Source of the DNA: Gimibacter soli
Lineage (GTDB): Bacteria > Pseudomonadota > Alphaproteobacteria > Sphingomonadales > Kordiimonadaceae
DNA length: 64,000 nt
NCBI RefSeq assembly: GCF_028463845.1
Contig: NZ_CP116805.1
Coordinates: 1,240,001-1,304,000 of the forward strand
Direction: 5' to 3'
In this document: in pieces, positions 33,450 to 53,585 of the stretch
How the letters are laid out: each line of letters starts with the position of its first letter
Position numbering within the stretch: position 1 is the stretch's first letter
The notes under the pieces: model-generated
The model's input: only the letters and a program-made list of their open reading frames with translations
Told to the model about the DNA's origin: nothing
Databases searched by the model: none
Program-made: the position numbers and the translations under genes

Positions 33450-35018
33450 ATGCATCCTGCCCTCAAACCCATCGACGACATGCTTCGCCGCCGCGATATC
33501 GCGGGGGCAGCAGCCGGGCTTGAGGCTTTCATGGCCCGCTCGCCCGATGTCGCCGAAGCGCACTTGATGGCAGGGCGACTTGCGCAGATGCAGGCCGATT
33601 TCACCCGCATGCGGGATGCGGCGGGGCAGGCCGAACGGCTTGCCCCCGGCCACCCTGTCGCCAGCCTGATGGGGATCGAGGCGCGCATTCATCTGGGCGA
33701 GATTGCCGAGGCCGCAGAGCGGCTGGCGCAGATGGAAGTGGCGGCAGCCACCAACCCTGTGATGCTGCAGCATATTGCCGAGTTTTACACGCAGGCCGGG
33801 CGGCACGCAGACGCGGACCGCGTTTACAAGGCCGCTCTTGCGATCACGCCCGATGACCCGCGCCTTCTGTTCAACGCCGCGACGGCAGCCTTGTCGCTCG
33901 GTCAGATTGACGCGGCAGAAGCGCTGCTGGACCGCGCAATTGCGATCAACCCCGCCGACGGCGACGCCTGGTACAATCGCGCCACGCTCCGCACCTGGAC
34001 GCACGAGAATAATCATATCGCCGCCCTTGAGGGCTGGCTCAAAACCGGCCCTGTAAAATCGCTTCGGGCCGTGCCCATCCATTATGCCCTCGCCAAGCAA
34101 TATGAAGATACCGGCGACCATGCCGCCGCCTTCCGGCATCTGCAGGCGGGTGGTGACCTGCGGGCGGCCCATATGCGCTATTCAGTGCAGGCGGATACGG
34201 ATGCGATGGCACTGATCGCCGGCACCTTTGACGCCGATTTTGCGGCAGGTGTTCCGGCCATGAGTGATGAACCCGGCCCGGTTTTCGTCCTCGGCCTGCC
34301 GCGCACGGGCACCACGCTGGTGGAGCGGATGCTGGCGGCGCATGACGAGGTCGAAAGCCTCGGCGAGATCAATGATTTTGCCTATGCCCTGATGGCGGAG
34401 GCCGGTCCCGCCAAGGGCAAGGCGGACCTTATCGCCCGTACGCGCGACATGGATCATGCTTCACTCGGCGCCCGGTATTTGCGCACCAGTGCGGGCAGGG
34501 GCGCGGGCAAGGCCTACCGGATCGACAAGACGCCGTCGAATTTCCTGTATCTCGGCCTCATCGCCAAGGCGCTGCCGACCGCGCGGATCATCCATCTGCG
34601 CCGCCATCCGATGGACAGCTGTTTCGCGATTTATAAAACGCTCTTCCGCATGGGATATCCGTGGAGCTACCGGCTCGCCGATATTGCCGAATATTATGTG
34701 GCATACAGCCGCCTGATGGATCACTGGCGGGCGGTGCTGCCGGGCCGGTTCCTTGATGTGGACTATGAAGCCCTTGTCGCCGACCCGGAAGGCGAAAGCC
34801 GCCGCCTCAGCGCCCATCTTGGGCTTGATTGGTCGCCTGCGGTTCTCGATTTCCACCGGAGCGACGCGCCGTCGACAACGGCCAGTGCCGTGCAGGTGCG
34901 TCGCCCGGTTTACAAAAGCTCGGTCGGCAAGTGGCAGCATTATGCGCGCGAACTGGCGCCCTTGGCTGAGCGGCTGCAGGCGGCGGGTATCGATATCGGC
35001 GTAGGGGCCGTGGCATGA
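33450..35018 (+). CDS. TPR-repeat sulfotransferase-family protein
   Basis: A 522-residue cytoplasmic protein. Residues about 1-250 are helical TPR-like repeats (for example EFYTQAGRHADADRVYKAAL, then AAEALLDRAIAINPADGDAW). The C-terminal half is a PAPS-dependent sulfotransferase fold: the 5'-phosphate loop VLGLPRTGTTLVERML (about 277-292) and the 3'-phosphate region IIHLRRHPMDSCF (about 383-395). Such fusions are common in Alphaproteobacteria but substrates are mostly unknown. A related protein is encoded at 62499. It overlaps the next gene by four bases (ATGA), so the pair is translationally coupled. It might sulfate an imported compound or a protein; both are inference. Confidence 0.87.
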   Translation: MHPALKPIDDMLRRRDIAGAAAGLEAFMARSPDVAEAHLMAGRLAQMQADFTRMRDAAGQAERLAPGHPVASLMGIEARIHLGEIAEAAERLAQMEVAAATNPVMLQHIAEFYTQAGRHADADRVYKAALAITPDDPRLLFNAATAALSLGQIDAAEALLDRAIAINPADGDAWYNRATLRTWTHENNHIAALEGWLKTGPVKSLRAVPIHYALAKQYEDTGDHAAAFRHLQAGGDLRAAHMRYSVQADTDAMALIAGTFDADFAAGVPAMSDEPGPVFVLGLPRTGTTLVERMLAAHDEVESLGEINDFAYALMAEAGPAKGKADLIARTRDMDHASLGARYLRTSAGRGAGKAYRIDKTPSNFLYLGLIAKALPTARIIHLRRHPMDSCFAIYKTLFRMGYPWSYRLADIAEYYVAYSRLMDHWRAVLPGRFLDVDYEALVADPEGESRRLSAHLGLDWSPAVLDFHRSDAPSTTASAVQVRRPVYKSSVGKWQHYARELAPLAERLQAAGIDIGVGAVA

Positions 35019-38887: not shown

Positions 38888-38911
38888 TTTACTGACAGCG
38901 CTGTCAGTAAA
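38888..38911. promoter_or_regulatory. 24-base perfect palindrome, LacI-type operator
   Basis: Each arm is TTTACTGACAGC, so all 24 bases are symmetric. The core TGACAGCGCTGTCA recurs at 38950, 47565, 48741 and, with changes, 48799. The LacI regulator encoded at 47676 is the probable partner. Confidence 0.8.
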
Positions 38912-38949
38912 ATGTGGACAATATATGACATAGCTGCTATCCAAAATAA

Positions 38950-38961
38950 GACAGCGCTGTC
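38950..38961. promoter_or_regulatory. Second LacI-type operator before the TonB receptor
   Basis: GACAGCGCTGTC is a perfect 12-base palindrome 62 bases before the receptor start codon and 50 bases after the end of the 24-base palindrome centre, so cooperative binding is possible. Confidence 0.78.
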
Positions 38962-39023
38962 ATCTGCTGGGGAGTAGAGGCAAGCCTGCGAGGGGAAACG
39001 CTGTTTTCTGGAGGAGGGAAAAC

Positions 39024-42008
39024 GTGAAATCGAAAGCAATGAGACTCGGCTCGGTCGCGAGCACGATGTCGCTTATCCTTGCGGCCGTTTCGGCCGGTTC
39101 GGCCGTGGCACAAGATGCAGGGGCCGGCGAGACTGAATTTGAAGAAATCACCGTCACTGGTATCCGCGGCAGCCTTCAGCGTGCCATGGATATCAAGCGG
39201 AGCAACGCAGGTGTCGTCGATGCCATTTCGGCTGAAGACATGGGCAAGTTCCCTGATACCAACCTGGCTGAATCGCTGCAGCGTATTACCGGCGTGTCAA
39301 TCGACCGTGTGAACGGCGAAGGCTCGAAGGTAACGGTTCGCGGTTTCGGCCCGGATTTTAACCTTGTCACCCTGAACGGTCGCCAGATGCCGGTTTCGAC
39401 GCTCGAAGAAACAACGGCTTCGTCGTCGCGTTCGTTCGACTTCGCGAACCTTGCTTCTGAAGGCATCGCAGGCGTTGAAGTATTTAAAACCGGCCGCGCC
39501 TCGATCCCCACGGGCGGTATCGGTTCGACGATCAATATCAAGACGACCCGTCCGCTTGACGCACCCGGCATGAAGGCCTCGATTGGTGCAAAGGCGCTGG
39601 CCGACACGTCGGAAATTGACGGTACGTCCTACAATCCGGAATTCTCGGGCATCTACAGCAACACATTCGCTGAAGACAAGTTTGGCGTCGCCGTTTCGGG
39701 TAGCTATCAGAAGCGCGAAAGCGGTTATGCCCAGGCAAGCACGCCGAGTGGCTGGCGCGGTGCCTATCTCGGTTCCGAGAACAACTGGGGCACACTGCCG
39801 CAGATTCCGGATGGAGGCACTGAAGAAGACATCAATGTCATCAACCGTCCGGGCCCGAACGATGTTTATGGCGTCCAGCAGAGCCTTGGCTATGTGTTCA
39901 CGTCGATCGATCGTGAGCGCATCAACGGCCAGGCCACCATGCAGTTCCGCCCGGTGGATACCTTCACCGCAACGGTTGACTACACCTATTCGAAGCACAA
40001 GGTGAAAACCAACCGTAACGACGTTTCGGTCTGGTTCAACTTTGGCGATACATCGAGCGAATGGACCGATGGTCCGGTCGCAGGCCCGGTTCGCTACTCC
40101 GAATATTTCGCTGGCTCCAAAGACGTTTCGATGGGCGGCGGCAAGTTCGAAGTGAACACCGAGATGAACTCGATCGGCCTCAATCTCGATTGGCAGGCAA
40201 CCGACCGCCTGCACCTCGAGCTTGATGTGCACGATTCGAGCTCGCTGTCGGACTCCGGTAGCCCCTATGGCACCAGCGCCGTAGTTAGTACTGCGGCCTT
40301 CCTCAGCGACTTCACCCAGTCGATCGACTACAGCCGCGACTTCCCGGTCCTGTCACTGGACGGCGTCTCGGGTGTAAGCCCTGCTGGACTGCTGACGACG
40401 GGTTCGAGCTTCCGCAACAGCCTGATGCGGACGGATATCAAACAGGCCCAGTTCAACGGCAGCTATGATTTCGATACCGATTTCATCAAGAGCGTCGATT
40501 TCGGCGCAAGCTACACCGAGAACAAGGTCCGTTCGGCCTTCTCGAATGCCCAGCGCGACACTTGGGGTGGCGTGGGTACGGCTGCGGATATCCCGGACGA
40601 TATCTTCGTGCTGCAAACCATCTCTGACAAGTTTAGCCAGGTGGAAGGCCATGATGATCCGGCCCTCTTCAACGAGTTCTATTCGTTCGACTTCGACCGT
40701 ATGGTTGGCCTGATTGACAGTCTCTATGATGCTTGCGGCGGCGACGGCGTCTGTATCGCAGACGACTTCACCACCGACCGCCGGACCGAGGAAAAGAGCT
40801 GGGCAGGTTATGTTCAGGTCAATTCCGAGTTCGATATCGTTGATCGTCCGGCTCGCCTTGTTGCCGGCATGCGCTACGAGAAAACCGACGTAGACAGCCG
40901 CGCACTCGTGCCGATTGCTGTGGGCACCCAGTGGGTGGCCAACAACGAGTTTGGCGTGATCTTCTCGGATGATCAGGATTTCACCGAACTCACCGGTTCG
41001 TATGAACACTGGCTGCCGTCGATCGACTTCGATGTCGAATTCTACGACAATATGGTGTTCCGTGCGTCCTACAGCGAGACCTTCACGCGCCCCGGCTACA
41101 ACCATATCCAGGGTGGCCAGACGGTGAACCAGATCTTCCGTGTTGACGGTGGTGACGGCAGCCAGGGTGATCCGGGTCTTCTGCCCTTCTCGTCGAAGAA
41201 TATCGATCTGTCGACCGAATGGTACTATGACGACGCGAGCTACTTCTCGGTTGGCTTCTTCCACAAGAAAGTCAGCAACTTCATCGCTTCGTCTGAAATT
41301 CAGGCTACGCCGTTCGATCTCGTCACGCCTTATGGCGGCAAGCGCTACAACGACGCCGTTGCAGCCCTTGGCGGCTCGACCGACCTGACTGCAATCCGCA
41401 ACTGGATTTTCGCCAATGCTGATCCGAGCACGGTTGAAATCCTCGGGACGGACTCGTCGGGCAATACCATCGGCAATATCTTTGGTGTACCGGGTGAAGA
41501 CCCGACCCTCACCTTCGATATCACTGTGCCGATCAACGAACGCAGCGCCAAGCTGCATGGTTGGGAATTCGCCCTGCAGCATACGTTCGGCGATACTGGC
41601 TTCGGCGCGATCCTGAACTATACCATCGTCCGCGGCGATGTTGATTTCGACATCACCCAACCCGCGAGCGTGGCGCAGTTCGCCCTTGTCGGTCTGTCCG
41701 ATAGTGCCAACATCATCGGCTTCTACGACAAGAACGGTCTGCAGGTTCGTGTTGCCTATAACTGGCGCGACAAGTTCCTGAACTCGACGAGTTCGGCCGC
41801 CGGCCCGAACAACCCGCTCTTCACCGAGGCTTACGGGCAGTTCGACGTCAGCATGAGCTACGATGTCACCGAAGCTCTCACGGTCTTTGCCGAAGCTATC
41901 AACCTGACCAACAGCTACAACCGTGTGCATGGCCGCCATGTCAACGAGGTCAACTATCTGACCCAGACCGGCCCGCGCTACGCGATTGGTGCTCGCTACA
42001 AGTTCTGA
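39024..42008 (+). CDS. TonB-dependent receptor, glycan-type
   Basis: A 994-residue outer-membrane receptor. It has a signal peptide ending at AVAQ, TonB-box-like FEEITVTGI, and the plug signature VVDAISAEDMGKFPDTNLAE followed by RITGVSIDRV, typical of the large receptors that Caulobacter, Xanthomonas and marine Gammaproteobacteria use for oligosaccharides. The barrel ends in YAIGARYKF with terminal phenylalanine. Start codon is GTG by position (39024), with GGAGGAGGG upstream. Context with GH16 and ExoP-type GH3 suggests a beta-glucan oligosaccharide ligand. It opens the SapC-cupin-halogenase run. Confidence 0.93.
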   Translation: MKSKAMRLGSVASTMSLILAAVSAGSAVAQDAGAGETEFEEITVTGIRGSLQRAMDIKRSNAGVVDAISAEDMGKFPDTNLAESLQRITGVSIDRVNGEGSKVTVRGFGPDFNLVTLNGRQMPVSTLEETTASSSRSFDFANLASEGIAGVEVFKTGRASIPTGGIGSTINIKTTRPLDAPGMKASIGAKALADTSEIDGTSYNPEFSGIYSNTFAEDKFGVAVSGSYQKRESGYAQASTPSGWRGAYLGSENNWGTLPQIPDGGTEEDINVINRPGPNDVYGVQQSLGYVFTSIDRERINGQATMQFRPVDTFTATVDYTYSKHKVKTNRNDVSVWFNFGDTSSEWTDGPVAGPVRYSEYFAGSKDVSMGGGKFEVNTEMNSIGLNLDWQATDRLHLELDVHDSSSLSDSGSPYGTSAVVSTAAFLSDFTQSIDYSRDFPVLSLDGVSGVSPAGLLTTGSSFRNSLMRTDIKQAQFNGSYDFDTDFIKSVDFGASYTENKVRSAFSNAQRDTWGGVGTAADIPDDIFVLQTISDKFSQVEGHDDPALFNEFYSFDFDRMVGLIDSLYDACGGDGVCIADDFTTDRRTEEKSWAGYVQVNSEFDIVDRPARLVAGMRYEKTDVDSRALVPIAVGTQWVANNEFGVIFSDDQDFTELTGSYEHWLPSIDFDVEFYDNMVFRASYSETFTRPGYNHIQGGQTVNQIFRVDGGDGSQGDPGLLPFSSKNIDLSTEWYYDDASYFSVGFFHKKVSNFIASSEIQATPFDLVTPYGGKRYNDAVAALGGSTDLTAIRNWIFANADPSTVEILGTDSSGNTIGNIFGVPGEDPTLTFDITVPINERSAKLHGWEFALQHTFGDTGFGAILNYTIVRGDVDFDITQPASVAQFALVGLSDSANIIGFYDKNGLQVRVAYNWRDKFLNSTSSAAGPNNPLFTEAYGQFDVSMSYDVTEALTVFAEAINLTNSYNRVHGRHVNEVNYLTQTGPRYAIGARYKF

Positions 42009-42041
42009 CGCTCAGGCGTTGGAGCACGTCACTAGGTAATG

Positions 42042-42075
42042 AGAAGGCCGTTGGAAACAGCGGCCTTCTTGTTCT
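42042..42075 (+). terminator. Terminator after the glycan receptor
   Basis: Stem AGAAGGCCG / CGGCCTTCT, loop of ten bases, then TTGTTCT. It lies 34 bases after the receptor stop codon and may only partly stop transcription into sapC. Confidence 0.7.
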
Positions 42076-42122
42076 AAGCTGACCCCGGTGCCGGCAAGCA
42101 CCAAGCGACAAGAAGGACAGGT

Positions 42123-42833
42123 ATGACCCGCCACGCGCTTCTCAATAACGGGGATCACCAGAACCTCCGTATCAACAACCGCCGCGCCGCTGACCTTGGC
42201 GACGGTGTGATGTATGTGCCCACTTTCCCGTTCGAATTTCGCGCCGTTCAGGCGCACTATCCGATCCTGTTTCATCAGGATGCGTCCACCGGTCGCTACC
42301 ATGCGCTTGCCATGTTCGGGTTCGAGCGCGGCGAAAACCTGTTCCTGACAGACGCCGGCTGGGATGCCCATTATGTGCCGCTCGCCATCCAGCGCCAGCC
42401 CTTCCTGATCGGGCAGGACGGCCGGGGTGGTCAGGTTGTTCATATCGACCTTGATAGCCCGCGGGTGAGTGGAACGGAGGGTGAGCCGCTCTTTCAGGCG
42501 AACGGCGCCAGTACGCCGTATCTGGAGCATGTCGCCGCCGTCCTTGATGCCATGCACAGGGGGGGCGAGGAAGCTGCGGCCTTCACGGAAACGCTGGCTA
42601 CACTTGGCCTTCTGGAAAGCCTCGCGCTCGATGTCGAACTCGCCGACGGCAGCAAGAACCGCCTGATGGGCTTTCATGTGATCAATGAAGAAAAGCTGAT
42701 GGCGCTTGATGGCGCCACGCTTGTCGATCTCAATGCCCGTGGCTATCTCGCGGCAATCTATATGGTGCTCGCCTCACTTTCGCACATCCGTGATCTGATC
42801 GTGCGCAAGAATGCACGGCTCGGAGGCCAGTGA
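42123..42833 (+). CDS. SapC-family protein
   Basis: A 236-residue protein without signal peptide. MYVPTFPFEFRAVQAHYPILF, FLTDAGWDAHYVPLAIQRQPF and the C-terminal LNARGYLAAIYMVLASLSHI belong to the SapC family, named from a Campylobacter S-layer-linked protein but of unknown biochemical role. In Alphaproteobacteria and Gammaproteobacteria such genes commonly sit next to glycan TonB receptors together with cupin and tryptophan-halogenase-like genes, as here. It starts 114 bases after the receptor and is seven bases before the cupin gene. Confidence 0.87.
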   Translation: MTRHALLNNGDHQNLRINNRRAADLGDGVMYVPTFPFEFRAVQAHYPILFHQDASTGRYHALAMFGFERGENLFLTDAGWDAHYVPLAIQRQPFLIGQDGRGGQVVHIDLDSPRVSGTEGEPLFQANGASTPYLEHVAAVLDAMHRGGEEAAAFTETLATLGLLESLALDVELADGSKNRLMGFHVINEEKLMALDGATLVDLNARGYLAAIYMVLASLSHIRDLIVRKNARLGGQ

Positions 42834-42840
42834 CAGGCCC

Positions 42841-43854
42841 ATGCGTGCCGCACCGAAAGCGATCAGGGAAATCACGGGCGTCCGGTCGGATGCCTTGCCG
42901 CTGGATATCCTGACCGGCAATGAACCCATCGTGTTCAAGGGGCTGGTTGCCAATTGGCCGCTCGTGAAGGCGGGCCGCGCCTCGGTGGCGGCGGCGCGGG
43001 ACTATCTGAAAAGCTTCCACAACGGCGCCTCCGTTGCGGTCACGCTGGCGGCACCCGAGGAAGGCGGTCGGGTTTTCTATAACGACGACCTTTCCGGCCC
43101 GAATTTCGAGCAGCATATGGCGCGGCTCGATATCGTGCTCGACAAGATGGTCGCCGATATGGGCAACGCGCAAGCGCCGCTTGCCTATGTGGGCTCCACG
43201 ACGATTGATGCCTGCCTGCCGGGCATGAGGGGTGAAAACGATATCGACCTCGGCGCCCGCGATGCGCTTGCCAGCATCTGGATCGGCGGCAAGTCGCGCA
43301 TCCCGGCGCACTATGACCTGCCGGACAATGTGGCCTGCGTGGCCGTGGGCCGCCGCCGTTTCACGCTTTTCCCGCCCGAGCAGTTGCCGAACCTTTATGT
43401 CGGCCCGCTGGATGTCACTCCTGCGGGGCAGTCGGTAAGCGTGGTGGATATCACGAACCCCGACCTTGAGCGTTTCCCGCGCTTTGCAGAAGCCTGGGGT
43501 GCGGCGCAGGTGGCGGAGATGGAGCCGGGTGACGCGCTCTTCATCCCGTCCATGTGGTGGCATCATGTGGAAAGCCTTGATGGCTTCAACGTGCTTATCA
43601 ATTACTGGTGGCGCCAGTCGCCCGCGCACATGGGGCCGCCGGTGAACGTGCTTTTCCACGCACTGATGGCGATCCGCGACCTGCCGCCGGCGCAGAAGGC
43701 GGTGTGGAAGGGCATCTTTGACCATTATGTTTTCGATCAGCCGGAAGGCAGCCTAGACCATATCCCGGAGGGGAGCCGGGGGGTGCTTGGGGCCATGGAT
43801 GAAAGGAATGCGCAGCGTATCCGCGCTTTCCTCCAGAAGCGGCTGAGCCGGTAA
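42841..43854 (+). CDS. JmjC-like cupin (Cupin_8) Fe(II)/2-oxoglutarate oxygenase homologue
   Basis: A 337-residue protein of the cupin-8/JmjC-like group, which hydroxylates proteins or small molecules. The iron facial triad is visible as H157-x-D159 (IPAHYDLPDNV) and a distal histidine at 241 or 242 in WWHHVE. The typical GPxxFKGLVANWP-like start is seen as PIVFKGLVANWPLVK, and GRRRFTLFPPEQL follows the first ligands. The ATG at 42841 is chosen over an earlier one that overlaps sapC. It is cytoplasmic and 27 bases upstream of the halogenase gene. A substrate shared with the halogenase is suggested only by linkage. Confidence 0.88.
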   Translation: MRAAPKAIREITGVRSDALPLDILTGNEPIVFKGLVANWPLVKAGRASVAAARDYLKSFHNGASVAVTLAAPEEGGRVFYNDDLSGPNFEQHMARLDIVLDKMVADMGNAQAPLAYVGSTTIDACLPGMRGENDIDLGARDALASIWIGGKSRIPAHYDLPDNVACVAVGRRRFTLFPPEQLPNLYVGPLDVTPAGQSVSVVDITNPDLERFPRFAEAWGAAQVAEMEPGDALFIPSMWWHHVESLDGFNVLINYWWRQSPAHMGPPVNVLFHALMAIRDLPPAQKAVWKGIFDHYVFDQPEGSLDHIPEGSRGVLGAMDERNAQRIRAFLQKRLSR

Positions 43855-43881
43855 CAGGTTTTGAGAGGAAGAGGGATTCTC

Positions 43882-45378
43882 GTGGAACAGGCAGAAGGAA
43901 AAGTCCGGCGCGTTGTCATTGCCGGGGGCGGCACCGCCGGCTGGATGGCGGCGGCCATCATGTCCAAGGTGCTGGGCAAGGCGCTTGAAATCCGCCTGAT
44001 CGAATCCGAGGAAATCGGCACAGTCGGCGTGGGCGAGGCGACGATCCCGACGCTTCTGACCTATAACCGACTTGCGCGGATTGACGAGCGCGAGTTCATG
44101 GCGGCCACCAAGGGCACCTTCAAACTTGGCATCGAGTTCGTGAACTGGCGCCAAAAGAACCACAGCTATATCCACTCTTTCGGCATCACCGGCAAGGATC
44201 ACTGGACAGCCGGTTTCCAGCATTTCTGGCGGCGCGGCCTGCAGGAGGGGCAGGCGTCCGACTTCGGGGACTATTGCCTTGAGCTGAAAGCGGCCCTTGA
44301 AAACAAGTTCGCGCACCTGCCGGACCTCGGCCTGAACTATGCCTATCACCTTGATTCCAGCCTTTACGCCAAGTTCCTGCGCAAGATGGCGGAAGAATAC
44401 GGCGTGGAGCGGATCGAGGGCAAGATTGTCTCGGTGCAGCAGGACGGTGAGACCGGCTTTGTGTCGTCTGTCACCATGATGTCGGGGCAGGTGGTGGAAG
44501 GTGATCTTTTCATCGATTGCTCGGGCTTCCGGGGCCTCCTCATCGAGCAGACCCTGCACACCGGCTATGACGACTGGACCCACTGGCTGCCGTGCGATAG
44601 CGCCGTGGCGGTGCAGACCGAAGCGGTCGAGGACCCGATCCCCTATACCCGTTCAACGGCCCACGATTCCGGCTGGCAGTGGCGTATCCCGCTGCAGCAC
44701 CGGGTGGGTAACGGGCTCGTCTTCTGCAGCCGGTACCAAAGCGATGACGACGCCATCCGCCTGCTGATGGACAATGTGCAGGGCAAGGCCTTGGTCGAGC
44801 CGCGCGTGCTGAAGTTTCGCACCGGCACGCGGCGCAAGCACTGGAACCGCAACGTGGTGGCGCTGGGCCTCGCCAGCGGCTTTATCGAACCCCTGGAATC
44901 GACCAGCATCCATCTTATCCAGCGTGGCATCCTGCGCCTGATGCAGATGTTCCCCAATCAGGGTATCCGGCAGGAAGATGTGGACGAGTTCAACAAGCAG
45001 ACCCGCGAGGAAACCGAAGGCATCCGCGACTTCATCATCCTGCACTATCATGTGACCGACCGGCGCGACACGCCCTTCTGGCGCCAGTGTGCCTCGATGG
45101 ATATCCCGGAAACGCTGGCGCATCGCATCCGCCTGTTCCGCGAAACCGGACGGGTTTTCCGGAAGGCGGACGAGTTGTTTGCCGAAAACAGCTGGATCCA
45201 GGTGATGCTGGGGCAGGGTATCCTGCCCGAACGCTATCACCCGGTGGTCGACGTGATGGAGAAGAAGGAACTCGGCGAGTTCCTTGATATGGTGAAGATG
45301 AATGTGGCGAAGACGGTGGCAAGCCTGCCGAGCCACCAGCAATATATCCGCCAATATTGCCCCTCGAAAATGGACTGA
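43882..45378 (+). CDS. Flavin-dependent tryptophan-halogenase-family protein
   Basis: From the GTG at 43882 (GAGGAAGAGGG upstream) the protein has 498 residues. It has the FAD loop GGGTAGWMAAA, a lysine (K81 in GTFKLGIEFVNW) where halogenases carry the chloramine-forming lysine, the WxWxIP motif (GWQWRIPLQHR, about 264-274), and a glutamate at 336 or 339 in FIEPLEST where the catalytic glutamate lies. So the halogenase landmarks are kept. Substrate is unlikely to be assured as tryptophan: these homologues sit in sugar loci and have no known product. It is last of the SapC-cupin-halogenase run and ends 10 bases from the convergent GH16 gene. Confidence 0.88.
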   Translation: MEQAEGKVRRVVIAGGGTAGWMAAAIMSKVLGKALEIRLIESEEIGTVGVGEATIPTLLTYNRLARIDEREFMAATKGTFKLGIEFVNWRQKNHSYIHSFGITGKDHWTAGFQHFWRRGLQEGQASDFGDYCLELKAALENKFAHLPDLGLNYAYHLDSSLYAKFLRKMAEEYGVERIEGKIVSVQQDGETGFVSSVTMMSGQVVEGDLFIDCSGFRGLLIEQTLHTGYDDWTHWLPCDSAVAVQTEAVEDPIPYTRSTAHDSGWQWRIPLQHRVGNGLVFCSRYQSDDDAIRLLMDNVQGKALVEPRVLKFRTGTRRKHWNRNVVALGLASGFIEPLESTSIHLIQRGILRLMQMFPNQGIRQEDVDEFNKQTREETEGIRDFIILHYHVTDRRDTPFWRQCASMDIPETLAHRIRLFRETGRVFRKADELFAENSWIQVMLGQGILPERYHPVVDVMEKKELGEFLDMVKMNVAKTVASLPSHQQYIRQYCPSKMD

Positions 45379-45388
45379 GGCCGGCGCC

Positions 45389-46180
45389 TCAGTCTTTCTT
45401 CTGCCAGACACGTACCCAGTCGATCTCGTAACGAACCGGGAACGCCGTATCGTCCACACCTTGTGATCCGCCCCAGTCACCGCCGACGGCGAGATTGAGG
45501 ATCAGGTGGAAGGGGTGGTCGAGCGGCCATTCGGGGTGACCGTCGCTGTCGGCTTTGGTCACGCTGTAATATTCGCGGCCGTCGATATACCAGCGGATGT
45601 CGGTTTCGGTCCATTCCGCCGAATATTCGTGGAAGTCTTCGGTCGCATATTCCACCACCATATTGCCGCCCTTCTGGGTGCCGATCCGGTGGTTATAGGC
45701 TTCGGTATGGATGGTGCCATGCACCCGGCCTTCGTCGTATCCCACATGCTCCATCAGGTCGATCTCGCCGGACTTGGGCCACGGGCCGTAAGACGCCTTG
45801 TCCGGCATCATCCAGAAGGCCGGCCAGGTGCCGCGCCCCTTCGGCAGTTTGGCGCGCATGGTGAAGCGGCCGTAGGTCCAGCCTTCGCGGTTCTGCGTGG
45901 TGATCTTGGCAGAGGTGAAATCCTTGCCTGCACCCTTCGCTTCGATGACCAGCACACCGTTTTCGATACGCAGGTTCTCAGACGCTTTGGTGTAGGTTTG
46001 CAGTTCGTTATTGCCGAAATAGCAATTCTGGGGGCAGCCATTGCCTTCGATGATGCGCCAGTCGCCCGTATTCAGTGCCGCACCGTCAAACTCGTCCGCC
46101 CAGACAAGCTGCCAGCTGTCGTCAGCCATGACAGGTGAGGAGGCGAGGAGGGTGGCAAGGCAAAGTGCGGTGCGGTTCAT
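45389..46180 (-). CDS. GH16 endo-beta-1,3-glucanase (laminarinase type)
   Basis: A 263-residue secreted enzyme with a signal peptide ending at VMA (residue 19). The GH16 active-site motif E139-I-D-L-M-E144 (GEIDLMEHVG) supplies nucleophile and acid/base; the extra residue between them (ExDxxE) marks the laminarinase-like bulge group. Other landmarks are NNELQTYT, WPAFWMMP and HPFHLILNLAVGGDWGG. It probably cuts beta-1,3 or mixed-linkage glucan. A far longer frame starting at 46669 is antisense or frame-shifted with respect to the symporter and was rejected. Its start overlaps the symporter stop by four bases (ATGA), so they are coupled. Confidence 0.94.
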   Translation of the reverse strand: MNRTALCLATLLASSPVMADDSWQLVWADEFDGAALNTGDWRIIEGNGCPQNCYFGNNELQTYTKASENLRIENGVLVIEAKGAGKDFTSAKITTQNREGWTYGRFTMRAKLPKGRGTWPAFWMMPDKASYGPWPKSGEIDLMEHVGYDEGRVHGTIHTEAYNHRIGTQKGGNMVVEYATEDFHEYSAEWTETDIRWYIDGREYYSVTKADSDGHPEWPLDHPFHLILNLAVGGDWGGSQGVDDTAFPVRYEIDWVRVWQKKD

Positions 46181-47541
46181 GATTTCATTTCCCTGAGCTT
46201 GGCGACAATCGCCGCGTGCGACTGTGCGGTAACCGGATAGAAAAGGATGACAAGGGCCGAGCCCAGAAGGGCTGTAGCCGGAATGAGCGTGAAGATATTG
46301 CGGATGCCGTCGGCGGTGGTCGATGCCACGTCTGCGCCCGCCTGATAGCCGATCATGTCCAGCAGGATGCCGGCCACGAAGGCGGATAGGCCGATGGTCA
46401 CCTTCTGGAAGCTTGAGGCCATGCCGATCAGGAAGGATTCGATCTTTATGCCGGTCAGATACTGGCCGTATTCGATCGTGTCGGGGAGGGCGCTCCAGAA
46501 AAGCACCGCAAAGCTCGATAGCCCGATCACGATGACGATGACAGCACCATATGCCGCCATGATCGACCCGCTGCGGTCGAAATAGAGCATCATCAGGCCG
46601 GCAGCGCCCGTCAGGCAGCCGAGGATCCAGGCGAAACGCTTGCCGATCTTCAGCGCCACCAGCGCCCAAAGCGGGATGGTAATCAAGGGTGCCGCCCCCA
46701 TGATGATGATCGCATTGTTGCCGGCCGTGCGGTTGCCAAGTGTGCTTTCGAAGAAATAGAGCATCGTCTGCCCGACGATGGAATTGGCGACAGTCACGAG
46801 CATGATGCCGCCGATCACCAGCATGAAGGGCCGGTTGCGCATCATGGCGGAAAGGCTTTCACCAAGGCCCGGCATCTCCTCGTCTGCCGGTTCCGGCTCT
46901 TCGTGGGTGTCGGTCAGCGCGAAGCAGGCGACAAGCACGATCACGGCCAGCACGCCAGCCGCGATGCCCATATGGCTGAAGGCCACAGCGTCGGGGTGTT
47001 CGGTCTGCAGATGCTTGGCGATGAAGCTGATGCTGACCCCACCCAGAAACCCGAAATACATGCGGATGCCGGCCAGCCGGGTGCGGCCATCGAAGTTTTG
47101 CGTGATGCGGGCGCCGAGCGTGGAATAGGGGATCGATACGATGGTGTAGGTGGTGCGAAACAGCAGGAGCACGATCAGCGTGTAAACAATCGTCATCCAT
47201 TCTTCGGGAAAGCGGACGGGTGTGAACATCAGCGCAAACATGATGGCCAGCGGCACACAGCCGAACAGCAGATAGGGCCGGTAAGGCCCGAAACGGCTGC
47301 GGGTGCGCTCGGCAATGAAGCCCATGATGGGGTCGGTGACGGCGTCCCATATCGAGGCGATCAGGAAAAGCGTGCCAACGACGGTGCCCGAAAGGCCCAC
47401 CACATTGGTTTCGAAAAAGAAGAGGAAGAAGCCGACACCCTGCCAGAAAAGATTGAGCGCATAGTCGCCAAGGCCAAAGCCGATAAAGGGTTTGAGCGGC
47501 GTCGCGCGGGCGTCGTTATCTGTCTGCAGTTGATCTGCCAT
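46177..47541 (-). CDS. GPH-family (MelB-like) sugar:cation symporter
   Basis: A 454-residue inner-membrane protein with about 12 hydrophobic segments. FGLGDYALNLFWQGVGFFLFFF at the N-terminus, WDAVTDPIMGFIAERTRSRFGPYRPYLLFG and the later PDTIEYGQYLTGIKIESF are glycoside-pentoside-hexuronide symporter signatures. It likely imports glucose, gentiobiose or laminari-oligosaccharides released by GH16 and GH3. The ATG at 47541 gives the family start; an earlier in-frame start would overlap the operator at 47565. It is first in a two-gene operon with GH16, divergent from the LacI gene. Confidence 0.9.
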   Translation of the reverse strand: MADQLQTDNDARATPLKPFIGFGLGDYALNLFWQGVGFFLFFFETNVVGLSGTVVGTLFLIASIWDAVTDPIMGFIAERTRSRFGPYRPYLLFGCVPLAIMFALMFTPVRFPEEWMTIVYTLIVLLLFRTTYTIVSIPYSTLGARITQNFDGRTRLAGIRMYFGFLGGVSISFIAKHLQTEHPDAVAFSHMGIAAGVLAVIVLVACFALTDTHEEPEPADEEMPGLGESLSAMMRNRPFMLVIGGIMLVTVANSIVGQTMLYFFESTLGNRTAGNNAIIIMGAAPLITIPLWALVALKIGKRFAWILGCLTGAAGLMMLYFDRSGSIMAAYGAVIVIVIGLSSFAVLFWSALPDTIEYGQYLTGIKIESFLIGMASSFQKVTIGLSAFVAGILLDMIGYQAGADVASTTADGIRNIFTLIPATALLGSALVILFYPVTAQSHAAIVAKLREMKS

Positions 47542-47564
47542 ACTGCCTTTTCCGGACCTCTTGC

Positions 47565-47578
47565 TGACAGCGCTATCA
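47565..47578. promoter_or_regulatory. LacI-type operator between symporter and LacI gene
   Basis: TGACAGCGCTATCA matches TGACAGCGCTGTCA with one change. It lies 24 bases before the symporter start and about 100 before the regulator start, so both the operon and the regulator could be controlled. Confidence 0.78.
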
Positions 47579-47675
47579 TGTGAGCGTGACAGCAGCAACT
47601 TTCTTGTGATATGAGGCACTTGAGACCATGCGCTGTTCCGGCGGGTCTGTCCAGCTTCAGTGCCCGGGGGAACTG

Positions 47676-48701
47676 GTGGCCATCGCGAAATCGAAAACCG
47701 CAACCATGAGCGACGTGGCCCGGCTTGCCGGCGTCTCGATGAAGACCGTTTCACGCGTTTTCAACAACGAGAAATATGTCGCCAAGGACAAGAAGGACAA
47801 GGTCCTCGCTGTCGCGACCGAGCTCAACTATCACCCGTCGCTGCAGGCGCGGGGGCTGGCGGGCAGCAAAACCTATATCGTCGGTTTCTTCGTGGACGTG
47901 CCAAGCGGCGACTATATCAGCAAGGTGCTGCGCGGCCTTCTGTCGCGCGCGGAGGAAGCCGGCTGCCATCTGGTGGTTGAGGTACTCAAAGACCGCGGCG
48001 ACGAAGTGAAGCTGAAGCAGGTTTTAAGCTCGATCCGCTTTGACGGCGTCGTCCTGTCGCCGCCGATCTGCGATGACGTGGTGGTGCTGAATGCCCTGCG
48101 CGCCATCGGCGTGCCTGCGGCCCGTATCGCGCCGGGTATTCCGGCCAAGGATATGTCCGAAGTCCATATCGACGATTATCAGGCTGCCTTCGACATGACC
48201 GAATTCCTGATCGGCAAGGGGCATCGCCGCATCGGCTTCATCAAGGGCAACCCGAACCACTCCTGTTCGCTGGACCGCGAGCGGGGCTATGTCCGTGCCA
48301 TGCAAAGCCACGGGATCGAGGTCAGGAACGAGCTGGTGGTGCCCGGCATGTTCTCCTTCGCGAGCGGGAAGGAAGCCGCCGAGATACTGCTGTCGCGCAC
48401 CGAAAAGCCGACCGCCATTTTCGCCTGTAACGACGAAATGGCGGCAGGCGTGCTGGCGGTCGCGCGCGAGAAGGGGCTGGCGGTGCCGGCGGACCTTTCG
48501 ATTGTCGGTTTCGATGATGACGCCATCGCCACCATCGTGTCACCCGCCCTCACCACCATGCGCCAGCCGGTCGAGGCCATGGCCGCCGCGGCCTTCGACC
48601 TGATGATGCAAAGTGCGGATGACGAAAGCACCGCCGGTACGCGGGTCGAGCATGCCTATGTGCTGTGCGACCGGGAATCCGTGGCCGATCTCACCCAATA
48701 G
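47676..48701 (+). CDS. LacI-family regulator of the glucan locus
   Basis: From the GTG at 47676 (GGGGG a few bases upstream) it has 341 residues; an ATG 48 bases earlier is the alternative. The helix-turn-helix is MSDVARLAGVSMKTVSRVFN, followed by the hinge HPSLQARGLAG and the sugar-sensing core ending with TTMRQPV. The recognition-helix residues (MK before TVSR) differ from the xylan regulator (PM) and the third regulator (VT). Palindromes of type TGACAGCGCTGTCA lie at the promoters of the receptor, the symporter operon and the GH3 gene flanking it, so these form its probable regulon. Confidence 0.9.
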   Translation: MAIAKSKTATMSDVARLAGVSMKTVSRVFNNEKYVAKDKKDKVLAVATELNYHPSLQARGLAGSKTYIVGFFVDVPSGDYISKVLRGLLSRAEEAGCHLVVEVLKDRGDEVKLKQVLSSIRFDGVVLSPPICDDVVVLNALRAIGVPAARIAPGIPAKDMSEVHIDDYQAAFDMTEFLIGKGHRRIGFIKGNPNHSCSLDRERGYVRAMQSHGIEVRNELVVPGMFSFASGKEAAEILLSRTEKPTAIFACNDEMAAGVLAVAREKGLAVPADLSIVGFDDDAIATIVSPALTTMRQPVEAMAAAAFDLMMQSADDESTAGTRVEHAYVLCDRESVADLTQ

Positions 48702-48740: not shown

Positions 48741-48756
48741 ATGACAGCGCTATCAT
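48741..48756. promoter_or_regulatory. LacI-type operator upstream of the second ExoP-type GH3
   Basis: ATGACAGCGCTATCAT is a 16-base palindrome with one mismatched pair, identical in its core to the site at 47565. Confidence 0.78.
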
Positions 48757-48812: not shown

Positions 48813-48887
48813 ATGCGATTCCCGGGCGGGCGGAATGGGGCCGCGCGATCCGGCAAGTTCAGACTTTCGGGGATTGGGGAGACCAGT

Positions 48888-51425
48888 ATGTCCGCCTACC
48901 AGACCTTTGGCCGCACGGCCAAGGCCTTTGCCATTTCCGCCTTGATGATGAGCGTGGCGCCTGCGCCGCTGCTGGCTGCCGATGAAGGCGCTGCCAGCTG
49001 GCCGGTTGTCGCGTCTGCCGTGAAGGCCGATGCTGCCATCGAAGCGCGGGTGAGCGAAATCCTCGCCAAGATGAGTGTCGAGGAAAAGGTCGGGCAGGTG
49101 ATGCAGGCCGAAATCCAGTTCGTGACGCCGGACGATATCCGCAAATATCATCTGGGCTCTGTCCTCAATGGCGGCGGCTCGCTGCCGAACAGGAACAAGC
49201 ATGCGACACCCGGCGAGTGGCTGGCGCTTGCGGATTCCTTCTATGAGGCCTCTGTCGATACGGCAGATGGCGGTGTGGCTGTCCCGATCATCTGGGGATC
49301 GGATGCCGTGCACGGCCATAACAATGTGATCGGCGCCACGCTGTTCCCGCACAATATCGGCCTTGGCGCGATGCATGATCCGGCCCTGATCCGCAAGATC
49401 GGCGAAGTGACAGCGCGTGAAGTGCGCGCCACAGGCATCGACTGGACCTTCGCGCCGACCGTGGCGGTTGCTCGCAACGATCGCTGGGGCCGCACGTATG
49501 AAAGCTATTCTGAAGACCCGGCATTGGTGAAATCCTATGCCCGCGAAATGGTGCTTGGCCTGCAGGGCGAGCCCGGTACACCCGATTTCCTGAATGGCAA
49601 CCATGTGATTGCCACCGCCAAACACTTCCTGGCGGACGGTGGCACCACGGCGGGGGACGATCAGGGCAATGCTGAAATGCCGGAGAAGGCCCTCCGCGAT
49701 ATCCACGCGCCCGGCTATTTCTCGGCGCTTGAGGCTGGCGCGCAAAGCGTGATGGCGAGCTTCTCGTCATGGAACGGCACCAAGATGCACGGCAACCCGT
49801 ATCTCCTCTCCGATGTGCTGAAGGATCGCATGGGCTTTGACGGCTTCATCGTCGGGGATTGGAACGGTCATGGTCAGGTGCCGGGTTGCACCAACGTGTC
49901 GTGTGCGGCTTCAATCAATGCGGGGCTTGATCTTTTCATGGTGCCCGAGGACTGGAAAGGCCTTTACGAGCATACACTGACGCAGGTGAAGGCTGGCGAT
50001 ATCCCGATGCAGCGGCTGGATGATGCGGTTGCCCGCATGCTGCGCGTCAAGCTGCGCGCCGGGCTCTTCGATGGGGGCAAGCCCTCGACCCGCGGCGTTG
50101 CCGGGCGTGACGATGTGATCGGTTCGCCCGAACACCGCGCTGTAGCGCGGCAGGCTGTACGCCAGAGCCTTGTTCTCCTGAAAAATGCTGGCGGTGTGCT
50201 GCCGATCAAGCCGTCGGCCCGTATTCTTGTCACCGGCGACGGGGCCGACAATATCGGCAAGCAAAGCGGCGGCTGGACGATCAGCTGGCAGGGCACCGGC
50301 AATGTGAACAGTGATTTCCCGGGTGCTACCTCCATCTATGGCGGTATTGCTGACGCTGTGAAGGCTGCTGGCGGTATCGCCACACTTTCGGAAGACGGCT
50401 TCTACAAGGAAAAGCCCGATGTAGCCGTTGTGGTGTTCGGTGAAGAACCCTATGCCGAAGGGCAGGGCGACCGCGACACGCTCGAGTTCGAGCCCGGCAA
50501 CAAGCGCGCCCTCGCCACGCTCAAGAAACTGAAGGCCGAGGGCATCCCGGTCGTATCCGTCTTCCTTTCCGGTCGTCCGATGTGGGTAAACCCGGAAATC
50601 AATGCGTCCGACGCCTTTGTCGCGGCCTGGCTGCCGGGCAGCGAGGGCGGCGGTTTGGCCGATGTGCTGGTTGCTGACGCACAGGGCAAGCCGCGTCATG
50701 ATTTCACCGGCCGCCTTTCCTTCTCGTGGCCGAAAACGCCGATGCAGGACACGCTGAACAAGGGCCAGAAGGGTTATGACCCGCAGTTCGCGCTCGGCTA
50801 TGGCCTCGACTATAAAGCCAAGGGCAAAGGTCCGGGCAAACTGGCCGAGGATGTGGAAGGCGTGAAAGCGCCGGGCATGGACGATATCCCGCTTTATGTG
50901 GGCCGTCCGCTCGCCCCGTGGCTTGTCTTCATCACCGACGATACCGCCGGCCAGCAGCTGAGCGGCGCCTATGCGGCGCTGCGCACCGGCACGGCGCGCG
51001 CCAATGTGGTCGACAAGAATGTGCAGGGCGACGCGCTGCTCGTCGAGTGGCTGACCGGCGACCGCGCGGCCCTCGCGCTGCGCGACGGACCGGTGCTTGA
51101 CTGGTCCGGCTATTACACCGCCGGCGCCACGCTGACGTTCGAGCTGAAAACCGACAAGCTTGATGCCATGGCCGTTGGCTTCGGCTGCGGGGCGGATTGC
51201 GGCGGTGACGTTTCGCTCGCCAAAGTGCCGGATGTTGGCGCAGCGGATGCTGCCGGCTGGCGCAAGGTCAGCGTGCCGCTTGTCTGCCTTGCAGACAGCG
51301 CCGAAAACTTCAGCCATGTGACCGAACCCTTCCGTCTGTCCGCGACAGGCGTGATGAAGGCAACCGTTGCGAACATCACCATTGATCTCACCGAAGAGGG
51401 TGTGAAGGCCTGTCCCTTCCCTTGA
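48888..51425 (+). CDS. ExoP-type GH3 exo-beta-glucosidase (second copy)
   Basis: A 845-residue GH3 enzyme from the ATG at 48888, with a signal peptide ending at LLAA (about 30) and no lipobox. It shares length and layout with the lipoprotein GH3 at 18591: GSDAVHGHNNVIGA, KHFLADGGTTAGDDQG, nucleophile D324 in GFIVGDWNGHGQVPGC, and an extra C-terminal beta-rich segment (from about 640). It is periplasmic and probably releases glucose from beta-1,3 or beta-1,4 oligoglucans produced by GH16. Two LacI-type sites in its promoter tie it to the glucan regulon. The frame extends 25 codons upstream, but that part overlaps an operator. Confidence 0.93.
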   Translation: MSAYQTFGRTAKAFAISALMMSVAPAPLLAADEGAASWPVVASAVKADAAIEARVSEILAKMSVEEKVGQVMQAEIQFVTPDDIRKYHLGSVLNGGGSLPNRNKHATPGEWLALADSFYEASVDTADGGVAVPIIWGSDAVHGHNNVIGATLFPHNIGLGAMHDPALIRKIGEVTAREVRATGIDWTFAPTVAVARNDRWGRTYESYSEDPALVKSYAREMVLGLQGEPGTPDFLNGNHVIATAKHFLADGGTTAGDDQGNAEMPEKALRDIHAPGYFSALEAGAQSVMASFSSWNGTKMHGNPYLLSDVLKDRMGFDGFIVGDWNGHGQVPGCTNVSCAASINAGLDLFMVPEDWKGLYEHTLTQVKAGDIPMQRLDDAVARMLRVKLRAGLFDGGKPSTRGVAGRDDVIGSPEHRAVARQAVRQSLVLLKNAGGVLPIKPSARILVTGDGADNIGKQSGGWTISWQGTGNVNSDFPGATSIYGGIADAVKAAGGIATLSEDGFYKEKPDVAVVVFGEEPYAEGQGDRDTLEFEPGNKRALATLKKLKAEGIPVVSVFLSGRPMWVNPEINASDAFVAAWLPGSEGGGLADVLVADAQGKPRHDFTGRLSFSWPKTPMQDTLNKGQKGYDPQFALGYGLDYKAKGKGPGKLAEDVEGVKAPGMDDIPLYVGRPLAPWLVFITDDTAGQQLSGAYAALRTGTARANVVDKNVQGDALLVEWLTGDRAALALRDGPVLDWSGYYTAGATLTFELKTDKLDAMAVGFGCGADCGGDVSLAKVPDVGAADAAGWRKVSVPLVCLADSAENFSHVTEPFRLSATGVMKATVANITIDLTEEGVKACPFP

Positions 51426-52616: not shown

Positions 52617-53585
52617 TCAGTCAAACGGCCAGGCGGCCACATTCGTAAAGCACGGCATCGCTGGAAAGGCACCCTGCCGGGTGACCGCATGGGCACCGCA
52701 AGCCGCGGCAAAGGTCGTGATGCCCTGCAGCGTTTCCCGGTCCTCCGGCAGATGGCCGAGACGCGACAGCGCATATAGAAGCCCGCCGCAGAAGGCATCG
52801 CCCGCACCGGTCGTATCGACAGCTGCCACTTCGGGGCAGGGCACTTCAAAATCATGCGTCCGGCTTTTCACCCTTGCAGGCGCCGCGCCATCGGTGATGA
52901 AGACAAGCGACACGCCTGAAGACAGAAGGCTGTCCAGATAGGCGTCCGCTGACCCTTCCGCGAGAAATTCAAGCTCTTCCCGCGCCAGCTTCACGATATC
53001 GGCGCTGCGGGCGAAGGTGTCGACGCACGCACGATCAACCTTGCCATCCAGCCACAGGGCGGGGCGGAGGTTGGCGTCGAAACTGACAAGCGCGCCTGCC
53101 GCCTTCGCGCGGGCGACGGCATGGGCGCTAACGTCCGCAATCGCGACATCTGTCAGCATGTTGCTGCAATGATGGAAGAAAGCCGATTGGGCAGGCCAAA
53201 GCCTGTCGATATCGCTCGCGGTGATGGCCAAATCGGCGCTGCCGTCCCGGCGGAAGCTGAAGCTGCGCTCGCCACTGGCATCAAGTGATACGAAAGCAAG
53301 GCTGGTCGGCGCCGCCGCGTGCCGGGCGAGCGGGCTGGTATCAACGCCGTAACGGGCAAGCGCGTCCGCAAGGAAATCCCCGAACATATCGGTCCCCACT
53401 TGCCCCAGAAAAGCAGCCCGTCCGCCAAGGCGTGCCACGGCAACCGCCACATTGGCCGGGGCTCCGCCGGGATAGGGGGTGAAGGGGGCAAGGCTGCCGT
53501 CAGCGTTTCGCCCGCCCAGAAAATCGATCAGGCACTCGCCGTAACAGACGACTGCTTTGCCATCCGTGTCGGCAAGGGCAGCCAT
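52617..53585 (-). CDS. PfkB-family sugar kinase (fructokinase-like)
   Basis: A 322-residue cytoplasmic kinase that phosphorylates a sugar with ATP. The N-terminal signature is YPGGAPANVAVAVARLGGRAAFLGQVGTD (residues about 38-66, start YPGGAPANVAVA), and the anion-hole and base motif DTTGAGDAFCGGLL is near the C-terminus with the catalytic aspartate in GAGD. GECLIDFLG at the start is common in fructokinases. The substrate is not fixed by sequence. Its start codon overlaps the kynureninase stop (TGATG), so it is translated right after that gene. Confidence 0.9.
   Translation of the reverse strand: MAALADTDGKAVVCYGECLIDFLGGRNADGSLAPFTPYPGGAPANVAVAVARLGGRAAFLGQVGTDMFGDFLADALARYGVDTSPLARHAAAPTSLAFVSLDASGERSFSFRRDGSADLAITASDIDRLWPAQSAFFHHCSNMLTDVAIADVSAHAVARAKAAGALVSFDANLRPALWLDGKVDRACVDTFARSADIVKLAREELEFLAEGSADAYLDSLLSSGVSLVFITDGAAPARVKSRTHDFEVPCPEVAAVDTTGAGDAFCGGLLYALSRLGHLPEDRETLQGITTFAAACGAHAVTRQGAFPAMPCFTNVAAWPFD

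Follow-up and report, generated by a model that had tools for sequence, protein, structure and literature searches.

The 64,000-nucleotide stretch of the Gimibacter soli genome analysed here (the window; RefSeq assembly GCF_028463845.1, contig NZ_CP116805.1, positions 1,240,001 to 1,304,000) contains four consecutive genes on one strand, which encode a TonB-dependent receptor, a SapC protein, a Cupin_8/JmjC-like protein and a flavin-dependent halogenase. It is nearly certain that this unit is real and that it is linked to the receptor. The composition of the cassette suggests a receptor-linked unit for oxidative tailoring, and its recurrence next to outer-membrane receptors of many related bacteria suggests that the enzymes either modify the receptor or cooperate with it. 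The four genes, which the first-pass annotation of the window had found at the same place and on the same strand, are the following.

39024..42008, plus strand: TonB-dependent receptor, TIGR01782 (Xanthomonas/Caulobacter type); profile matches; signal-peptide-like N terminus by eye
42123..42833, plus strand: SapC (PF07277); profile match; no export signal seen by eye
42841..43854, plus strand: Cupin_8/JmjC-like protein with HxD...H; the open reading frame (ORF) is open from 42811, ATG 42841 being the likely start
43882..45378, plus strand: flavin-dependent halogenase, Xcc4156/BrvH group; ORF open from TTG 43861, GTG 43882 being the likely start

The family profiles agree with these assignments. 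The receptor scores 644.1 bits against TIGR01782 (cut-off 310) and also matches PF00593 and PF07715, SapC scores 244.2 bits against PF07277 (cut-off 28.9), the cupin 239.9 bits against PF13621 (cut-off 27.4) and the halogenase 655.6 bits against PF04820 (curated cut-off 21). No sequence relative of the receptor with a solved structure was found at E 0.001. The cupin and the halogenase, like SapC, lack a signal peptide as judged by eye. The gap between the receptor and SapC is 114 bases, hairpin included; the cupin start at ATG 42841 comes just after the SapC stop, and the halogenase start at GTG 43882 is preceded by a purine-rich stretch. These shorter starts are the more plausible ones, and the residue numbers of the first-pass annotation (H157, D159 and K81) fit them.

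Linkage of the halogenase to the receptor

Genome contigs were scanned with the window halogenase, and the best 80 of 172 confirmed loci were kept, which are near relatives by design. The halogenase of the near relative Pseudokordiimonas caeni is 99% identical to that of the window. In 78 of the 80 loci a TIGR01782 receptor is encoded upstream of the halogenase and on its strand; the two exceptions, L082 and L130, are situated at the ends of contigs. The order receptor-SapC-cupin-halogenase was recognized by profiles in 65 loci, many of them with a second halogenase in between, and a second halogenase is found upstream in 47 of the 80. The remaining loci consist of the receptor and halogenase only (five loci) or the receptor and two halogenases (four), lack SapC (two, L079 and L140) or the cupin (two, L083 and L141), or are at contig ends (two). 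Within the window's own genome all eight halogenases, all four SapC genes and all three Cupin_8 genes are positioned within about 4 kb of TIGR01782 receptors, clustering at six of the nine full receptors of this type.

Twelve of the 80 genomes, picked by eye for taxonomic spread, were searched whole, with a halogenase threshold of E 1e-40. Of the 77 halogenases found, 72 have a TIGR01782 receptor at a distance of up to 10 kb (66 of up to 4 kb). The fraction of the genomes that is so near a receptor would predict 4.5 for the 10-kb limit. Twelve of the 77 had brought the genomes into the analysis, and these had been chosen by sequence, not by linkage. Chance linkage is ruled out by these numbers, and the conserved linkage across genomes, on which the first-pass annotation had staked its proposal beforehand, thus holds. 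Among the five remaining halogenases, those of L333 and L334 adjoin TonB-type barrels of other families (a Plug domain is not listed for L334), that of L335 is one ORF away from a TonB-type receptor of another family, and that of L337 is 13.5 kb from a TIGR01782 receptor; the fifth is described with the target of the modification.

In a class sample, for which at most eight halogenase candidates per genome were scored, a receptor was identified by profile in 13 of 14 loci of higher-scoring halogenases. The profile identified a receptor in none of six loci of lower-scoring halogenases (L067-L072), a search that did not extend to other receptor families. The linkage is therefore not general to PF04820 proteins.

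The halogenase

The catalytic lysine and glutamate of this superfamily are K79 and E346 in PrnA, and WxWxIP is a further motif of these enzymes. The 505-residue frame that opens at TTG 43861 contains K88, E346 and WQWRIP, and FIEPLESTS is also there; the catalytic lysine is K88 in this frame and K81 if counted from GTG 43882. Both WxWxIP and the glutamate of FIEPLEST, to which the first-pass annotation had drawn attention, are thus present, and the alignment that it called for shows the lysine and the glutamate kept together in 169 of 172 halogenase ORFs at the loci examined. The exceptions are three additional, degenerate copies next to intact ones (L053, 10633-12138; L060, 9041-10528; L064, 11535-13031); these copies may be non-catalytic partners.

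The nearest solved relatives of the window halogenase are 6y1w (Xcc4156; E 1.3e-212, 710 bits), 9luq (1.8e-180) and 6frl (BrvH; 5.8e-140, 471 bits), Xcc4156 and BrvH ranking first and third, and the next match follows at 6.5e-84. Judging by its sequence, the protein is a flavin-dependent halogenase of the tryptophan-halogenase superfamily and belongs to the Xcc4156/BrvH subgroup, with its catalytic residues intact.

A modular cassette with a predicted second type of oxygenase

The first-pass annotation had singled out SapC, the cupin and the halogenase as a trio. The trio does recur as a cassette, with intact catalytic residues and shared operators, but the unit is wider than the trio. The variants seen include the receptor with the halogenase alone, a second halogenase, a DUF6445 protein, and a cupin with a receptor but no nearby halogenase. 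Of the 19 Cupin_8 genes in the 12 genomes, 16 have a halogenase within 10 kb and 17 a TIGR01782 receptor within the same distance. One (L332, 6742-10702) is separated by 206 bases from the TIGR01782 receptor gene before it; the stretch analysed there contains a GH20 gene close by but no halogenase. In L333 (6374-12053) the halogenase has the TonB receptor of another family on one side and a 2OG-FeII_Oxy_5 protein on the other. It is thus the receptor, not the halogenase, that looks like the constant neighbour of the cassette.

A DUF6445 gene (PF20043) is located downstream of the halogenase in 13 of 128 loci scanned: L152 (11480-12157), L086, L093, L094, L099, L102, L105, L123, L126, L138, L145, L146 and L150. 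A search of the 12 genomes and that of the window gave 11 DUF6445 matches, eight of them within 10 kb of a halogenase and three not; none was found in the window's genome. Twelve aligned relatives keep H103-x-D105, H197 and R215. The structural model has a predicted local distance difference test score (pLDDT) of 93.3, and its best match in VIA is OGFOD1 (Z 14.0, root-mean-square deviation 2.8 over 171 residues), followed by a Trichoplax prolyl hydroxylase (13.0), Tpa1 and P4H (12.9) and PHD2 (12.6). DUF6445 thus has a predicted 2-oxoglutarate (2OG)/Fe(II)-oxygenase fold and constitutes an additional gene of the receptor cassette.

The cupin and SapC

The HxD motif of the window cupin is H167/D169 in the frame that opens at 42811, which corresponds to H157/D159 from ATG 42841. 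In an alignment of 77 cupins H167 and D169 are present in all, and H251 in 76, the last having a gap. The closest solved relatives by sequence are FIH and JMJD5. The lysine K214 of FIH, which serves the carboxylate of the co-substrate, is replaced by arginine in 77 of 77 cupins; the arginine may perform the same task, so that a hydroxylase function stays possible.

The AlphaFold2 model of SapC has a pLDDT of 96.4. Its sequence has no match in the Protein Data Bank at E 1. The model has none in a Foldseek search of the same database at E 0.001 (539 matches at E up to 10, the best 0.13) and none in VIA-align at Z 2 among 999 chains; VIA re-reads only the Foldseek list, so a new fold is unproven. 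SapC thus has a confident predicted fold with no detected solved counterpart. The idea that the protein is confined to the cassette had to be rejected: SapC also stands alone in many alphaproteobacteria. The 192 alphaproteobacterial genomes searched contain 50 SapC matches in 42 genomes, at least seven of them near halogenases, and in none of 29 other SapC loci did the profiles find a receptor, cupin or halogenase within 1.5 kb. A role of SapC as an adaptor or chaperone is a guess.

Operators and sugar context

The cassette is followed by genes for glucan use, and further elements surround it.

38893-38906 (exact palindrome TGACAGCGCTGTCA) and 38949-38962 (one mismatch): two LacI-type operators upstream of the receptor
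42038..42073, plus strand: hairpin just 3' of the receptor gene, a possible partial terminator or mRNA stabiliser
45372..45395, plus strand: terminator-like hairpin spanning the halogenase stop codon, weak alone since there are 9 such sites in 7.1 kb compared to 6.7 expected
45389..46669, minus strand: GH16, the ORF given from its first start codon, with the real start probably further in
46177..47754, minus strand: GPH-family sugar symporter in its long ORF form, the profile match beginning only at residue 92
47628..48701, plus strand: LacI-family regulator, best NCBIfam matches PurR/RbsR models, under their cut-offs; operator at 47565
48813..51425, plus strand: GH3; profile match; operators at 48742 and 48798

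The operator at 47565 (one mismatch) is 5' of the LacI gene and inside the long-form GPH ORF, and the two operators 5' of GH3 have one (48742) and two (48798) mismatches. Matches to the LacI-type palindrome with up to three mismatches number 12 in the whole window, compared to 3.4 expected. Because such palindromes precede the receptor, the LacI gene and GH3, the receptor operon belongs with the GH16/GPH/GH3 locus, as the first-pass annotation had proposed from their common LacI-type sites. The exact palindrome TGACAGCGCTGTCA occurs at six places in the genome. Two of these (G000:C1:2840616 and G000:C1:147179) are near two other halogenase loci of this genome, the former about 140 bases 5' of the receptor ORF of L049.

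The sugar genes change from locus to locus and the enzymes are retained, so that the receptor looks like the constant partner. In the window's genome, where 20 neighbours picked mainly by size were scanned, the halogenase loci include an alpha-amylase (L046), a YgjK/trehalase-like protein (L047), GH94 with CBM9 (L049) and GH16/GH3 (the window); no glycosidase is among the neighbours scanned of L048 and L050. The commonest neighbour clusters in the 80 loci and the window are those whose representatives are GH3 (50), LacI (33) and GH16 (24). The enzymes are therefore not tied to one sugar. A compound bound to the imported glycan, which the first-pass annotation had listed among the possible targets, is less supported now that the enzymes are seen to recur beside different sugar genes in one genome.

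A hairpin of at least seven pairs is found within 150 bases 3' of the receptor stop in 66 of 79 loci, compared to 17.5 in mononucleotide shuffles, a control that does not keep dinucleotide order, and hairpins after genes are common anyway. The window hairpin (42038..42073) is not among the terminator-like sites. Such a hairpin would fit a high level of the receptor and a lower level of the enzymes, sufficient for catalysis.

Two other parts of the window contain genes of possible relevance. One encodes a second TonB receptor (30994-33360) and, immediately after it, a TPR protein that carries a Sulfotransfer_3 domain (33450-35018) and may be a modifying enzyme; the other, on the far side of the glucan locus, holds a kynureninase-like gene for tryptophan breakdown (53585-54838).

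Possible targets of a modification

The receptor polypeptide itself is put forward, tentatively, as the molecule that is modified, in the cytoplasm; this possibility ranks first among those considered here but falls short of a probable one. It is suggested because the solved kin of the cupin are protein hydroxylases and the DUF6445 model matches OGFOD1 best in VIA, because peptide substrates have been proposed for the halogenases BrvH (PMC5945002) and Xcc4156 (PMC7336383) by their authors, in the text available, and because a receptor is the constant neighbour across receptor families and sugar contexts. A precedent is the Caulobacter receptor CciT, which depends on the cytoplasmic dioxygenase CciO (PMC11870441, text available). 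The halogenase, the cupin and SapC would stay in the cytoplasm and reach the receptor polypeptide before its export, and, if the enzymes are indeed cytoplasmic, only then could they meet it. The halogenase would act on an electron-rich aromatic residue of the receptor, the cupin (elsewhere also the DUF6445 protein) would act by hydroxylation, and SapC might serve as an adaptor or chaperone. The modification could tune ligand binding or gating of the receptor while the sugar is available. In its general form, namely that Proteobacteria halogenate and hydroxylate TonB receptors prior to export by means of linked halogenases, Cupin_8 and DUF6445 oxygenases and SapC, the proposal is somewhat unlikely.

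If the receptor is the substrate, a residue that accompanies the halogenase might be expected to mark it, and the comparison of receptors weighs against this reading. The first set contained 98 linked and 20 unlinked receptors, with four 'edge' receptors excluded from the counts, and R120, D401, W514, W914 and W255 seemed enriched in the linked ones, W514 most tellingly. New receptors were then taken from the 12 genomes, which have at least 116 over the cut-off (in six of them, scoring was limited to 36 candidates). Five were left out, namely the L078 receptor (already in the first set), a split and a partial receptor, one whose frame has an internal stop, and one more; removal of 11 duplicates of the first set from the other 111 gave 31 linked and 69 unlinked receptors. 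Here W514 is present in 12 of 31 linked and 19 of 69 unlinked receptors, and W914 in 15 and 24, respectively; the corresponding numbers are 23 and 28 for R120, 24 and 23 for D401, and 16 and 10 for W255.

A tree was calculated from 179 thinned and realigned receptors of both sets (91 linked, 88 unlinked, 21 changes of linkage). In this set W514 occurs in 64 of 91 linked and 12 of 88 unlinked receptors, and a tree-controlled sign test gave 4.5 changes with the linkage and 0.1 opposite to it in 18 supported pairs (median p 0.125). The same and opposite values were 2.5 and 0.7 for W914, 0.4 and 0.3 for R120, 0.9 and 1.2 for D401, and 0.5 and 0.6 for W255. All 3505 residue-column tests spread symmetrically, from a net +7.0 for the best (E499) to -6.8 for the worst. 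A receptor residue as the mark of the substrate is thus rejected: with phylogeny taken into account, none goes with the linkage to a halogenase, and the enrichment in the first set was due mostly to the sampling of close relatives of a single halogenase. The leading columns V495, E499 and S504 are in the strand before W514 (residues 495-514 of P0001), a weak lead that is within the spread of the scan. Receptor and halogenase distances, compared for the few loci available (17, of four genomes), do not correlate either: rho is 0.10, and 1779 of 5000 within-genome permutations were as high.

Further points on the same side concern the linkage and the oxygenase. The fifth of the halogenases mentioned above forms a set with SapC and DUF6445 (L336) for which no receptor was found in 18 kb, and one higher-scoring class-sample locus (L058) has none by the TIGR01782-type profile, other receptor families not having been searched. 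Of the at least 116 TIGR01782 receptors in the 12 genomes, at least 73 are without a halogenase in the surrounding 10 kb. For DUF6445 the small-molecule enzymes PasI (Z 12.7) and SnoN (12.6) are level with the prolyl hydroxylases in VIA, and the Foldseek list is led by the small-molecule oxygenase FtmOx1; confidence in a receptor substrate is lower because such oxygenases score so close behind the protein hydroxylases. The first-pass annotation had named the receptor, a surface protein or a co-imported glycan-bound compound as possible targets. A protein or peptide substrate fits the solved kin of the cupin and the proposals made for BrvH and Xcc4156 (available text of PMC5945002 and PMC7336383), but the receptor residues do not follow the linkage beyond phylogeny.

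The main alternative, which is quite possible if doubtful, is that a small aromatic compound is tailored. It could enter through the receptor or be produced in the presence of the sugar; examples would be an indole, a polysaccharide-bound phenolic and a signal that keeps competitors away. In vitro, indole and its derivatives are substrates of both BrvH and Xcc4156, and BrvH can brominate free indole (PMC5945002, PMC7336383, as far as the text available goes). The small-molecule oxygenases among the fold matches of DUF6445 and the failure to find a receptor residue coupled to the linkage also agree with such a compound. However, BrvH converts indole poorly, and the authors of that work question whether this is the natural activity (PMC5945002, text available), and one shared compound would have to be assumed across different sugar genes and receptor families.

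It is improbable that the target is another protein of the uptake path, such as TonB, a periplasmic partner, a surface protein or a regulator, with the adjacency to the receptor kept for co-regulation. The operators are common to the whole locus, and the many receptors that have no halogenase nearby make action in trans possible; on the other hand, a receptor is present in 78 of 80 loci, compared to 50 and 33 of 81 for the commonest other clusters (GH3 and LacI). Least likely, and distinctly improbable, are enzymes without a specific partner to modify, which would serve sensing or protection during uptake, for instance through the removal of oxidants or traces of aromatics: co-regulation with uptake through the operators and the occurrence of SapC apart from the other genes would agree with this, but the conservation of the halogenase lysine and glutamate (169 of 172) and of the cupin HxD (77 of 77) points to a specific reaction.

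BrvH has been described as an enzyme of unknown natural substrate (PMC5945002, text available), and its relatives here have an outer-membrane receptor as their constant neighbour. If the receptor is indeed modified, a transporter that is halogenated or hydroxylated would add a new kind of post-translational control to glycan and nutrient uptake, and the BrvH/Xcc4156 halogenases would have the natural role that they have so far lacked. Independently of the target, a predicted enzyme class can now be assigned to DUF6445 and a confident predicted fold to SapC.

Comparison with known systems

The nix genes of a Xanthomonas N-acetylglucosamine locus reportedly resemble those for SapC, the cupin and the halogenase and adjoin a TonB receptor gene. 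No description of a receptor-linked halogenase unit was found in the part of the open-access literature that was searched, and a printed description may exist. PMC11337851 contains the terms 'tryptophan halogenase' and 'TonB-dependent receptor' but, in the text available, does not link the genes, and the words halogenase, SapC and cupin are absent from PMC1790865.

The closest known enzymes are Xcc4156 and BrvH, which have the same catalytic motifs as the window halogenase. They are active on indole compounds, not on free tryptophan, and their active site is open (PMC7336383 and PMC5945002, text available). The difference is in the context: the main texts of both papers do not contain the word 'receptor', nor does that of PMC5945002 contain 'TonB', whereas the enzyme described here is in a receptor operon. 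MibH, a halogenase of the same superfamily, acts on tryptophan inside a peptide and thus sets a precedent (PMC5945002, PMC7336383, text available). It is distant, however, with 26% identity between Xcc4156 and MibH and no co-clustering (PMC7336383, text available). The protein hydroxylases FIH and JMJD5 are the cupin's closest solved relatives and share its HxD...H, whereas FIH differs in the lysine that is arginine here.

The CciT-CciO pair resembles the cassette in that a co-conserved outer-membrane receptor depends on a cytoplasmic oxygenase. Iron import by CciT, a TonB receptor of Caulobacter, requires the cytoplasmic Fe(II)/2OG dioxygenase CciO, and CciT reaches the outer membrane in the absence of CciO. 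The authors do not favour protein modification in that case and discuss siderophore chemistry, which would be an equally good model for the tailoring of an aromatic compound. Compared by description, the pair differs from the cassette in serving iron uptake under Fur, with a Fiu/PiuA-type receptor and an oxygenase that has PiuC and YbiX as homologues, and neither a halogenase nor SapC is mentioned in the text available (PMC11870441 for all of these statements). The enzymes of the cassette are themselves of known classes. New here are a SapC fold with no detected counterpart, a Cupin_8 gene that follows a receptor without a halogenase, and a linked DUF6445 protein with an oxygenase fold.

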